The notes under the pieces: generated by a model
What the model saw: the letters and a program-made list of their open reading frames with translations, nothing else
The model's database searches: none
What the model was told of the DNA's origin: nothing
Made by a program: the position numbers and the translations under genes
Shown: positions 135 through 10,428 of the stretch, piece after piece
Numbering within the stretch: the first letter of the stretch is position 1
Layout: each line of letters starts with the position of its first letter
Assembly (NCBI GenBank): GCA_946403965.1
Contig: CAMJBT010000022.1
Coordinates: forward strand, 1 to 47,697
Reading direction: 5' to 3'
DNA from: an uncultured Pseudobutyrivibrio sp.
GTDB taxonomy: Bacteria > Bacillota > Clostridia > Lachnospirales > Lachnospiraceae
Length of the DNA stretch: 47,697 bases

Positions 135-539
135 ATGAAAGATCAAATACAAATAACTCAAGACAATTTTATTAGACTGTTGGAAGAGGAATTTCCAGAC
201 AAGCATACAGATGTCCTGCATCACATTGAAGAAAATGGCGAGGTATTGTTTCATATTTTGTGCAATGATGTAATAGAAACCCCATTAGAGGAGCTGTTGT
301 CTGAAAATAAAGATACCGATATTATTAAGAAGTATTGTGATTTTATTGAGCGAATGTGGAAATTTGGAAATGAAGACATTATAAACATTCTAGATGTAAC
401 AGTTTTCGAAGGGCTGGCTCAAGATGACAAGATATGGCAGACTTTTGGTCAATACATATCTCAAGAGTGTAAAGATTATATCAACAATGATTTAATATCA
501 TGGAACGTGATGATGTTTTTATGTAAGCGGATAATATGA
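135..539 (+). CDS. Small acidic hypothetical protein, DUF7674-like
   Basis: A 134-residue soluble protein with no signal peptide or membrane segment, rich in Asp and Glu. The pattern of an N-terminal EEFPD stretch, followed by alternating helices and a conserved-looking KKYCDFIERMW segment near the middle, recalls the small DUF7674 proteins of Firmicutes; the family name is from memory. Such short acidic helical proteins are often immunity partners of secreted toxins, and an upstream gene ends just before it, so an immunity role is a reasonable guess and no more. No strong ribosome-binding site is visible before the ATG; only a GGGA about 15 bases upstream. It is followed by an intrinsic terminator. 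It is the only complete gene left of the putative dif site, and its coding strand is G-rich, as expected for leading-strand coding. Confidence 0.7.
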   Translation: MKDQIQITQDNFIRLLEEEFPDKHTDVLHHIEENGEVLFHILCNDVIETPLEELLSENKDTDIIKKYCDFIERMWKFGNEDIINILDVTVFEGLAQDDKIWQTFGQYISQECKDYINNDLISWNVMMFLCKRII

Positions 540-588
540 TCCCTGAGATGACCAAATTCAAGTTTGTTTAACCAAATAAACATATTAT

Positions 589-612
589 AAGGAGCTGGTT
601 TAGCTCCTTTAT
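589..612 (+). terminator. Intrinsic terminator after the DUF7674-like gene
   Basis: AAGGAGCT at 589-596 pairs with AGCTCCTT at 602-609 around a five-base loop, followed by TATTTAT. It lies about 50 bases after the stop at 539 and closes the plus-strand unit. Confidence 0.75.
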
Positions 613-760
613 TTATACATATTATTTCCAGAACTAAATGCAACAGTAATGTATGTTTTGCTTTTACCTCTATAATGTTGCATTAACTTCAAGAATTTTG
701 CATTTACTAAAAAAAGTTACTGAAAGAAAGAGAAAAAAGAGAGAAGCATTTGACAAATGT

Positions 761-794
761 ATCTGTCGGATAAATATCTGTTTTTCCGATAGAA
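761..794. other. dif: Candidate dif-like Xer recombination site
   Basis: Two 14-base arms, ATCTGTCGGATAAA (761-774) and TTTTTCCGATAGAA (781-794), are inverted repeats matching at 11 of 14 positions and are separated by exactly six bases, TATCTG (775-780). This is the Xer core layout of two about 11-base arms around a 6-base spacer; the core would be 764-791. The right arm's TTTTTCCG also recalls the streptococcal difSL site as I remember it, and difSL likewise lies just upstream of xerS. Strand bias of genes and G/C skew both switch here, as expected at a terminus. Identification is inferred from architecture and context, not from a database match. Confidence 0.65.
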
Positions 795-870: not shown

Positions 871-1935
871 ATGGGCAAAGATTCCGAATTCTATAAAGAA
901 AAATCAAAACAACAAAAACTTAAACTTAAAGAACTTTTATCTCAACTCCCAAAACCAGCTATAGACTATATTCATTCAAAAGAACAAACAACACAAACAA
1001 GTACTTTAATATCCTATAGTTACGACCTATTGACTTTCTTTCGGTTTTTACAGTCATCTAACCCTACAATTACAGGTTTGGACATCAGAAAAATTGATTA
1101 TGAGCTCTTAGATAAAATCCAGCCAGATGATATTGAAGAATATCAACGATACCTTGAATTAAATGTTATTGGTGAACAACATGAAAACGGCAAAAAATCT
1201 ATTGCTCGTAAAATGTCACCACTTAGAAGTTTATATAAATATTTATTACAACGAGAATATATTTCTCACGATCCAACACAGTTAGTTGCTTTACCTAAAT
1301 TAAAAAAGGACAAAAATATCGTTCGAATGAGCAATTACGAAGTTCAATCAATACTTGATGCAATTGAAAATGGCAATGCTTATACCTCTGAACGTCAGCG
1401 AAAATACGCTCAGAAAACCAAAGGACGCGACCTCGCCATAATGACTTTAATGCTTAATACAGGTATACGTGTCAGTGAATGTAATGGACTTGATCTTGAT
1501 GATGTTGATTTTATTGTTAATTCTTTAACAATCGTAAGAAAAGGTGGAGGACAGGATATTATCTACTTCAACAATGATGTAGCAGACACTTTAAAGGAAT
1601 ATATAAATGGTGAGCGCCAATACATCAATCCCATCAATGGACATGAAAAAGCACTATTCTTCTCTCTTCAAGGTAAACGTATTAGCATTGATGCTATTGA
1701 GAATCTTGTGAAAAAATACGCGAAAATCATTGTCCCAAATAAAAAAATTACACCTCACAAGCTTCGAAGCACCTATGGTACTGCTCTATATCGAGAAACT
1801 GGCGACATACGTCTTGTAGCGGATGTTTTAGGGCACGAAAATATTAATACTACTATTGACTACTATGCTGCTATTGAGGATGAACACAAGAGATTGGCCA
1901 GAAATGCTGTAGATTTTAGTAAAAAAGATCAATAA
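871..1935 (+). CDS. xerS: XerS-like tyrosine recombinase
   Basis: A 354-residue tyrosine recombinase with an N-terminal SAM-like core-binding domain (about residues 40-150) and a C-terminal catalytic domain. All six catalytic positions are present: Arg200 in TGIRVSE, Lys224 in the RKGGG hairpin, His296 and Arg299 in HKLR, His322 in LGHEN, and the nucleophile Tyr331. The length and the GRDLAI segment before the first catalytic Arg fit XerS, the single-recombinase system that resolves chromosome dimers at difSL with FtsK, better than the roughly 300-residue XerC/XerD. The ATG at 871 is chosen because GGGAGG at 858-863 is well spaced from it; an in-frame TTG at 856 falls against that site. The coding strand is C-rich and G-poor, the reverse of the gene to the left, so the gene probably lies on the lagging strand just past the terminus. 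An integrative-element integrase is the alternative. Confidence 0.85.
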   Translation: MGKDSEFYKEKSKQQKLKLKELLSQLPKPAIDYIHSKEQTTQTSTLISYSYDLLTFFRFLQSSNPTITGLDIRKIDYELLDKIQPDDIEEYQRYLELNVIGEQHENGKKSIARKMSPLRSLYKYLLQREYISHDPTQLVALPKLKKDKNIVRMSNYEVQSILDAIENGNAYTSERQRKYAQKTKGRDLAIMTLMLNTGIRVSECNGLDLDDVDFIVNSLTIVRKGGGQDIIYFNNDVADTLKEYINGERQYINPINGHEKALFFSLQGKRISIDAIENLVKKYAKIIVPNKKITPHKLRSTYGTALYRETGDIRLVADVLGHENINTTIDYYAAIEDEHKRLARNAVDFSKKDQ

Positions 1936-7952: not shown

Positions 7953-8942
7953 TTAAGTACAATAATTACTAAGCATTTGATTCATCAGCAAATAAAGATT
8001 TGACCTGCAATCAGCATTAAACACAATGGAAATTATCTTGTCACCATCTTCATTTTGAGATAGCAACACCAAGCAATATCCTGCAGCACCTGTTGTACCA
8101 GTCTTACCACCTAAAATAGTAAAACCGTTAGGCTGATGAACGTTACCAGATAAATACTGATTTGTAGTTCTCCAATCTACAGTTTTTGCAGAACCTTGAC
8201 TAGTGTAATTTGCAGTATAGGTTGTTGCTGTAAAAATATTATAAAAATTTTCATTCTGTAATGCAGTATTTAAAATTAGATACATATCATATACAGTGGT
8301 GTAATGATTCTCATCATGCAATCCATTAGGAGTGATGAAATGAGAATTTGTAGCACCAATTTCTGTTGCAGTCTGGTTCATCAATTCAGCAAATGATTCA
8401 ACATCTCCGCTAATTCCCTCGGCAATTGCTACGGCCGCATCGTTGCCAGATCGAAGCATAAGGCCATACAACAAATCTCTTAGGGATATAACATCTCCTG
8501 CTCTAAGGTTGATAACAGAAGAATCACTAGCTTGGTCAACAGCATTTTCACTAATAGTATAAAATTCGTCCAAATCCCCTTTTATACAAGCTATGTAAGC
8601 TGTGAGGATTTTGGTTGTAGATGCTGGATATAACTTTTCATGAACTGATTGGGCATAAACACAAGACTGTTCAGTTATATTAAAAGCAGCGGCACCAGAT
8701 GCGACCTGCGAATCAACGGCAGATGTGCCCAAATCCTCATCACCAGTCACACACAAATCCTTTGCAAACAATTCTACATCAGAACCCGCTCCATTGTGTG
8801 TGATACCATAAACATCTGAAGTGTCATAAATATTATAGCTTGATACATTTTCCTCTTTCTTACCGCAAGAAATCAGAGAAAATGCCATTATAACAACTAA
8901 GGATAAAGAAACACATTTATTTATACATTTCACGCCACTCAA
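7953..8942 (-). CDS. Lipoprotein D-alanyl-D-alanine carboxypeptidase (S11 family)
   Basis: A 329-residue penicillin-binding protein of the DacA/DacF type that trims the terminal D-Ala from peptidoglycan stem peptides. The three active-site motifs are present: STTK at Ser108-Lys111, SGN at 165-167 and KTGT from Lys280. A lipoprotein signal peptide with LISC (lipidated Cys26) anchors it outside the membrane; many family members instead use a C-terminal amphipathic helix, which is missing here. The first start is a TTG that overlaps the mgsA-like gene by 26 bases; a GTG three codons later is also possible, and AGAGGAG lies before both. It ends the elongation operon, which fits a role in wall maturation. 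Confidence 0.93.
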   Translation of the reverse strand: MSGVKCINKCVSLSLVVIMAFSLISCGKKEENVSSYNIYDTSDVYGITHNGAGSDVELFAKDLCVTGDEDLGTSAVDSQVASGAAAFNITEQSCVYAQSVHEKLYPASTTKILTAYIACIKGDLDEFYTISENAVDQASDSSVINLRAGDVISLRDLLYGLMLRSGNDAAVAIAEGISGDVESFAELMNQTATEIGATNSHFITPNGLHDENHYTTVYDMYLILNTALQNENFYNIFTATTYTANYTSQGSAKTVDWRTTNQYLSGNVHQPNGFTILGGKTGTTGAAGYCLVLLSQNEDGDKIISIVFNADCRSNLYLLMNQMLSNYCT

Positions 8943-9312
8943 GATCTCCTCTATCCAAAGACTTAATAAGCAATTCTGCTGTAGCTAAGTTAGTAGCCAA
9001 AGGTATATTATGGGCGTCACAAATCCTAACAATACTATTAACATCAGGTTCATGAGATTTAACAGTAAGTGGATCTCTAAGAAAAATCACTAAGTCAATC
9101 TCATTTTGCTCAATCTGAGCACCAAGCTGTTGAGTACCACCAAGGTGGCCTGCTAAATACTTGTGTACAGAAAGGTTTGTAACCTCCTCTACAAGTCTGC
9201 CAGTAGTTCCTGTGGCAAAAATCTCGTTTTTGCTAAGTATTCCTCGATAAGCAATACAGAAATTCTGCATCAGCTTCTTTTTGGAATCATGAGCTACTAA
9301 TCCAATGTTCAT
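8917..9312 (-). CDS. mgsA: Methylglyoxal-synthase-like protein lacking the catalytic Asp
   Basis: A 131-residue protein plainly of the MgsA fold: NIGLVAHDSKKK at the start, ATGTTG at 33-38, FLRDPL at 77-82 and HEPDV at 87-91. By my recalled alignment to E. coli MgsA it keeps His8, Asp9, Lys12, Asp80, His87 and Asp90. However, the GGDQQ motif reads GGTQQ, so the proposed catalytic base Asp71 is Thr60, and phosphate-binding Ser65 is Ala54. The ordinary reaction, DHAP to methylglyoxal, is therefore doubtful. It has a good site (GGAGG, nine bases before ATG) and directly follows rodA in the rod-shape operon. It may be a repurposed subfamily with a regulatory or ligand-binding role. Confidence 0.85.
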   Translation of the reverse strand: MNIGLVAHDSKKKLMQNFCIAYRGILSKNEIFATGTTGRLVEEVTNLSVHKYLAGHLGGTQQLGAQIEQNEIDLVIFLRDPLTVKSHEPDVNSIVRICDAHNIPLATNLATAELLIKSLDRGDLEWREMYK

Positions 9313-10428
9313 TTAAAAAAGCCTCCCATTATTATTTTTTGATTGAAGACCAACATTCAATACAATACCAATACCAAAATAAACTGTAACAAGGGACGTG
9401 AGTCCATAACTAACAAAAGGAAGTGGTAAACCGGTATTTGGCATCAATCCTGTTACTACGCAAATATTAACGAAACTCTGAAAACCAATCAATGTAGCCA
9501 TACCCACACAAATAAGTTTACCAGATACGTCTTTCGCATTCTTTGCTATCATAAGAATTTCAATTGTAATAAAAAATATAAGAATAATTACTAAAGCGGA
9601 ACCTACAAATCCCAGTTCCTCTCCTGCTACTGCAAAAATAAAATCAGTATGAGGTTCTGAAATATAATTACCATTTTTTACAGAATCAAAAGCATCGTTT
9701 CCTAAGCCTTTTCCCATCAGCTGTCCTGAACCTATTGCCATGATAGAATTCTGCTGCTGATAAGAATTCTGTGGATATTTATCAGGTTTAAGCCATGCAA
9801 GAATACGGATACCTTGATATTCCTTAAGAATAGTTTGCCCTTCTCTAGAAATAAGGGCTAGTAAAATAAGAATTGATGGCGCAGTCACTCCAAGTACAAT
9901 ACCAACAAGCTTATAACTTAGTCCCACTACAAACATCATAACACAAATAATCATCATTGTGACTATAGTAGTTGATAAATCTGGTTCTTTTTCTATTAAA
10001 ATTAACGGAATTCCAGCTAAAATCATTGTAAAAACTAGAATTTTAGGCTTATTTATTTCTTCTTCATGCATCATTAAAAACCATGCAAAAAACAAAATAA
10101 GCAAAATTTTGCCTAGCTCAGAAGGCTGAAATCTAACTCCAACTTCAATCCATCTGGTAGCACCACCGGCATCATCACCAAAAATCAAAACTGCTACCAA
10201 AAGAACAATGACAAGCCCATAGTATATCCAGTGAAAATGAAGAATGAAATCATAATCTACTAATGTCATTCCTGCCATAACTAAAACGCCAAGTATCATA
10301 CCAATAATCTGTTTCTGTTGGTTAGATTCATTCGCTGAACCTATAACAAAAATACCTATAATGGTCAAGGCAATTACAGCTAATATTAACTTAATATCCA
10401 GATTTTTAAATTTATAATTTCGAAACAT
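9313..10428 (-). CDS. rodA: Rod-shape SEDS peptidoglycan glycosyltransferase RodA
   Basis: A 371-residue polytopic SEDS protein with about ten membrane segments that polymerises lipid II with its partner class B PBP. Family marks include RWIEVGVRFQPSELGK, the EPHTDFIFAVAGEELG block with the essential Asp at 262, and the C-terminal TGLPLPFVSYG. It is assigned as RodA rather than FtsW or SpoVE because it lies in one operon with mreBCD and PBP2, its usual partner. Its ATG overlaps the minC stop by one base (TAATG), and the mgsA-like gene starts right at its end. Confidence 0.95.
   Translation of the reverse strand: MFRNYKFKNLDIKLILAVIALTIIGIFVIGSANESNQQKQIIGMILGVLVMAGMTLVDYDFILHFHWIYYGLVIVLLVAVLIFGDDAGGATRWIEVGVRFQPSELGKILLILFFAWFLMMHEEEINKPKILVFTMILAGIPLILIEKEPDLSTTIVTMMIICVMMFVVGLSYKLVGIVLGVTAPSILILLALISREGQTILKEYQGIRILAWLKPDKYPQNSYQQQNSIMAIGSGQLMGKGLGNDAFDSVKNGNYISEPHTDFIFAVAGEELGFVGSALVIILIFFITIEILMIAKNAKDVSGKLICVGMATLIGFQSFVNICVVTGLMPNTGLPLPFVSYGLTSLVTVYFGIGIVLNVGLQSKNNNGRLF

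Follow-up and report, generated by a model that had tools for sequence, protein, structure and literature searches.

The 34-bp dyad upstream of a tyrosine recombinase gene in the window (the whole stretch of DNA analysed here, 47,697 nucleotides from an uncultured Pseudobutyrivibrio sp.) is best read as the chromosomal dif site of a Pseudobutyrivibrio-type bacterium, with the adjacent gene encoding a single Xer recombinase predicted to act on it, a reading to which sequence comparison leads us to assign a probability of about 0.88. The left arm (ATCTGTCGGATAAA) and the right arm (TTTTTCCGATAGAA) match each other at 11 of 14 positions across a 6-bp spacer, TATCTG, and the ATG of the recombinase gene lies 77 bases past the last base of the site, all as the first-pass annotation had described (Table 1). 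In the window sequence alone the dyad is marginal evidence against chance: the whole window holds 12 dyads of the 14-6-14 type with at least 11 matches, against 2-7 in 10 Markov resamples, and at least one such dyad is found in ~6% of 500 resamples of the local 331 bp (P ~0.06). We take the dyad as real because it is conserved among relatives.

Table 1. Features of the window around the candidate dif site
Feature	Coordinates	Strand	Basis or remark
dif-like recombination site	761..794	+	arms 761-774 and 781-794, spacer 775-780; sequence, conservation, skew
XerS-like tyrosine recombinase, 354 aa, complete	871..1935	+	ORF; best NCBIfam model XerS
168-bp repeat, 3' end 40 bp from dif	553..721	+	repeat copies near dif; probable mobile-element end
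Terminator-like hairpin inside the 168-bp repeat	589-609		
DUF7674 protein, 134 aa, left of the repeat	135..539	+	PF24722, E 9.4e-15

That conservation was assessed by scanning a single genome for each species and keeping 80 recombinase-encoding loci (the best 80 of 104), spanning Pseudobutyrivibrio, Butyrivibrio fibrisolvens, Roseburia, Shuttleworthella, Konateibacter and further Lachnospiraceae. With a site called at 24 or more of 34 matches and no more than 600 bp upstream of the gene, the 34-bp site is found upstream of the orthologous recombinase gene in 74 of these 80 related loci, and the suggestion that relatives would keep the site beside the recombinase is thus borne out in the genus and in the wider Lachnospiraceae. 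Of the six misses, two have the locus cut by a contig edge (L073 and L121), three have the site farther away or on a different contig (L048, L054 and L057), and L095 carries a diverged, inverted copy. Adding the window gives 75 site rows, 54 of them distinct, in which the distance from site to ATG ranges from 11 to 464 bp with a median of 74. Over the 74 rows with sufficient flank, pairwise identity averages 83% within the site, against 30-38% in four adjacent windows of 34 bp. The consensus for the Lachnospiraceae site is ATCTATCGGATAAA-TATCTG-TTT[A/T]TCCGATAGAT, the inner AAA/TTT being invariant in all 75 rows. Several arm positions covary: the pair 6-29 is T-A in 55 rows and G-C in 10, and the pair 8-27 is G-C in 59 and T-A in 6. 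Position 5 is A in 72 of 75 rows and G in the window and in L103, where one pair is broken.

The position of the site is that expected of a replication terminus. Full 10-kb flanks were available for 42 of the 80 loci, and in 39 of these GC skew passes from positive to negative across the site; the other three (L081, L095 and L115) show no clear change. In 33 of the 42 loci no more than 1.5 kb separates the cumulative skew maximum from the site, and in 39 no more than 3 kb; the maximum is mostly ~1 kb to the right of the site and close to the end of the recombinase gene, so that skew alone cannot separate the site from the gene. The two are separated in L054, where 3.8 kb lies between site and gene and the maximum falls 251 bp from the site. 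In G012, 2-kb bins at the site give +0.14, -0.12 and -0.27, placing the switch within ~2 kb of it, and 20-kb samples along the same genome's 2.70-Mb contig locate the other switch at 0.70-0.84 Mb, nearly opposite the site. The window itself starts at a contig end; from 1001 onward the skew of its 2-kb bins is negative. The proposal that the site would coincide with a turn of the skew is accordingly upheld in both the locus set and G012.

A dif site is expected once per chromosome, as the first-pass annotation had pointed out, and the genomes of the genus agree with this. They were searched with the core pattern at up to 3 mismatches, the same pattern read backwards serving as a control. A core match with at most 2 mismatches is present in 28 of 29 genus genomes, and the control, at up to 3 mismatches, finds matches in 3 of the 29. 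The only extra matches, one each in G012 and G003, are on separate contigs of 102.5 and 88.9 kb, respectively, both probably plasmids. The genome with no core match for this site version (G026) is 81% complete, and its recombinase matches are only weak. The site is separated from the recombinase gene yet retained in G005 and G022, and site and gene lie on different contigs in G025. The exact site core has no match among the viral contigs searched.

The recombinase has the residues R200, K224, H296, R299, H322 and Y331, which we take to be the catalytic ones and which are invariant in 20 aligned rows. It is matched at E 3.4e-60 or better in 58 of 61 genomes; in the remaining three the best match is weak (G026 and G051) or is XerD (G034). 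One match in a draft genome (G010:C1:1778955-1779995; L032, L056) begins at residue 7 and contains one in-frame TAA. Although XerS (NF003462) is the best NCBIfam model, the score of 195.6 bits falls below its cut-off of 267, and the protein is 29-30% identical to six XerS rows and 24-29% identical to XerD. In trees, six XerS, eight XerD and 37 Lachnospirales rows, plasmid-type paralogues included, occupy separate branches, with support of 98/90 for the six XerS rows, 98/96 for the 37 Lachnospirales rows and, in a larger tree, 100/99 for XerS plus L259. Left out of these trees were L178, L252, L255 and L258 (empty after the ORF filter), L256 (wrong ORF) and L194 (a duplicate), and the smaller 98/96 tree was also made without the remaining '_oth' rows, L259 and L249. 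Joining XerS with the version-1 Lachnospiraceae as one clade gives a p-AU of 0.023, for a group that was chosen after the first tree and with the long XerS branches flagged. Assignment to XerS proper is ruled out by the sub-cut-off score, the separate branch and the 14-6-14 site, and the enzyme very probably works like XerS while standing outside the XerS clade. The proposal of a single-recombinase Xer system outside the streptococci therefore stands as regards the pairing of site and gene, their conservation, the skew turn and the lack of a second match in five genomes (see below), and fails as regards membership of XerS itself.

Outside the genus the recombinase is 39-50% identical to the window protein. 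The idea that the window's site version extends across the whole order was rejected: only L173 among 20 order-level stretches had a perfect dyad close upstream, the core of this version has no match in 17 of 61 genomes, and the 16 matching genomes outside the genus do so with 2-3 mismatches, as by chance. A second site version, AACTATTCGTTAAA-N6-TTTNGCGAATAGTT, lies on the contig of the gene, 0.3-52 kb away, in nine of 21 genomes (G029, G031, G035, G039, G048, G055, G056, G057 and G059); these nine sites were picked post hoc, by eye, from like cores, and their arm letters outside the pattern match at 24-27 of 28 positions. A first, loose pattern for this version showed no enrichment over the backwards control in the 21 genomes, and a tighter one matches 73 of 196 order genomes against ~31 for the control by a hand count, most of the 73 lying outside the set of loci read. 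Within the loci read, arm matches of at least 23/28 separate from those of at most 20/28, and the upper group comprises 23 genomes with 11 family codes. The skew maximum is no more than 1.6 kb from the second-version site at six of 13 places (G031, G039, G048, G055, G056 and G057) and in G059 the distance is 3.4 kb; the sites in G035 and G036 are too near a contig end, and the contig of G029 too short, for the skew to be read. The candidate in G046 (dyad 6) was discarded as a chance match, and we are unsure of G031b and G033 as sites of this version. Judged from these sequences, the single-Xer system probably reaches beyond the genus into other families of the order. G417 and G489, which belong to the same genus, have two core matches of the second version apiece, at widely separated places.

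Single-recombinase systems of several kinds offer points of comparison. XerS/difSL, as far as the available portions of PMC5357621 describe it, belongs to streptococci and lactococci and uses an asymmetric 31-bp site with an 11-bp centre. The Lachnospiraceae system resembles it in having one recombinase of ~355 aa, a site directly upstream of the gene and a terminus position, and differs in the near-mirror arms of its 14-6-14 site. When the region upstream of a genuine xerS (L242) is compared with the Lachnospiraceae consensus, the known site is the best match within 1.5 kb, at 21/34 without gaps, a score equalled in 5 of 20,000 shuffles. XerH/difH of Helicobacter and Campylobacter, in the accessible parts of PMC2731167 and PMC5357621, is likewise a single recombinase of similar length with a site usually near the gene, a central hexanucleotide and a terminus position; in sequence, however, the Lachnospiraceae protein matches XerH only weakly (5jjv, E 4.8e-6, against E 4.9e-18 for XerD 1a0p), and XerH rows are absent from the trees. 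The XerL/dif system of the Legionellales, to judge from the accessible text of PMC9765430, shares, by description, the single recombinase and a near-palindromic terminus site, and differs in that gene and site are more than 400 kb apart in L. pneumophila. With XerCD/dif the candidate system would share its function, together with its terminus position; it differs from that two-recombinase system in that none of the 29 genus genomes rises above the curated XerC or XerD cut-off, both of which are strict, so that this count by itself is weak evidence.

The neighbourhood of the site also bears probable marks of mobile elements. Matches to the 168-bp repeat of Table 1 occur in at least 20 of the 61 genomes (19 from the genus), the candidates having been only partly scored in many. 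Across 34 loci, 17 repeat copies with an intact 3' end are found at 15 dif sites (13 chromosomal and two on probable plasmids), all with this end towards dif and at a distance of either 40-42 bp (5 copies) or 49-53 bp (12 copies); in the same 34 loci no copy faces a nearby dif with its opposite end. Repeats flank dif on both sides in G022 and G025, only a 5' piece lies near dif in G015 and G017, and beside dif no copy is present in ten of the genus loci that were examined. Copies also occur apart from dif, in G004, as second copies in G010 and G003, and in others; the repeat is also found in L225, L226, L236, L167, L171, L223 and others. An IS30-type gene, together with cargo, lies between dif and the recombinase gene in G005 and G022 and adjoins the recombinase gene in G025. 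At 73% identity or more the 29 genus genomes hold seven IS30 copies, five of them near dif or the recombinase gene (G005, G010, G021, G022:C15 and G025) and the other two at different places in G022; more divergent copies are mostly elsewhere. The repeat probably forms an end of a mobile element homing on dif, and the DUF7674 protein is possibly part of its cargo; that the IS30-type gene moves the repeat-bearing element is a guess. The res-site hunters of the Tn5053 family are a precedent to which such an element can be likened. More tentatively, and at what we consider less than even odds, the Lachnospirales single-Xer recombinases may form a family of their own with a fast-changing dif, hunted by a cargo-bearing element with an IS30-type transposase whose end, in fixed orientation on chromosomes and plasmids and at two distances from dif that differ by about one helical turn, would recognise the Xer-dif complex. 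An integron-like cassette array to the left of dif was also considered and found unsupported, and an Rfam search gave no matches.

Relatives of the system occur on other contigs, some of them probably plasmids. The 102.5-kb contig of G012 (G012:C2, L171) carries a XerS-like gene at 8877-9905, 35% identical to that of the window, and a dif-like site at 8810-8843, one arm of which is as in the chromosomal site and the other diverged. The window's own genome contains, on G000:C6, a paralogue near-identical to this plasmid-type gene. At L231:4652-11371 (G009:C13; compare G000:C108) half of a dif-like sequence and a plasmid-type XerS-like gene enclose a small gene and two genes for tyrosine recombinases, an arrangement that would fit the insertion of an element into the site; the gene order is Tn554-like. 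The 88.9-kb contig of G003 (G003:C3) has a dif-like site at L223:9823-9856, and the protein search lists no recombinase match on that contig.

These plasmid-type relatives bear on a different reading of the dyad, namely that its role is that of a recombinase-gene operator or of a mobile-element attachment site, and not dimer resolution. The placement of the site directly upstream of the gene would suit such a role, as would a probable plasmid that carries a paralogue with a site of its own and the presence of other tyrosine recombinase genes near a plasmid-type site. An operator or an integrase gene would not, however, be expected to follow the skew switch from genus to genus or to persist in nearly every genome of the genus; the site outlives its separation from the gene in G005 and G022, the second version stands up to 52 kb from the gene in other families, and the viral contigs lack the exact core. 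We consider this reading improbable. Chance, which the local P value from the window alone would leave room for, is ruled out by the conservation of the site among relatives set against the low identity of its flanks, and an accidental inverted repeat has a vanishingly small probability.

Slightly less probable than an operator or attachment site is a dif that requires two recombinases, the window type and a second partner that went unrecognised. Further tyrosine recombinases are present in many genus genomes, XerD exceeds its cut-off in nine of the 61 genomes, all outside the genus, and some true XerC and XerD proteins fall below the cut-offs, only 2 of 14 control genomes passing for XerC and 4 for XerD. 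Yet five genus genomes (G010, G011, G013, G020 and G021) yield no second match when searched with the window recombinase protein, and in G011, G013 and G021 the XerD model, at E 0.001, likewise matches no gene besides the window-type recombinase. The near-mirror arms are those expected for one protein, and the second site version is common to genomes with XerD above the cut-off (G031, G039, G056 and G059) and without it (G029, G035, G048 and G057).

A chromosomal dif served by one recombinase thus remains the preferred reading. In the scheme that we infer for binding, cleavage positions, FtsK dependence and dimer resolution, two like protomers would occupy the pair of 14-bp arms in each site, and the two sites of a dimeric chromosome would be brought together at the terminus. 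Strand exchange would then take place across the 6-bp spacer and convert the chromosome dimer to monomers before division, with FtsK, by analogy with XerS and XerH, as the probable signal.

Single-Xer systems are named for streptococci and lactococci, epsilonproteobacteria, archaea and the Legionellales in the available portions of PMC5357621, PMC2731167 and PMC9765430. In the open-licence papers searched we found no report of such a XerS or dif system in Lachnospiraceae or Butyrivibrio, a search that does not settle priority. If the reading is correct, one enzyme would be enough for abundant gut and rumen bacteria to separate their chromosomes, and naturally occurring site variants in the order would allow the joint change of a recombinase and its site to be studied. 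In draft genomes the site is a marker of the terminus, and mobile elements seem to use it as a landing place.
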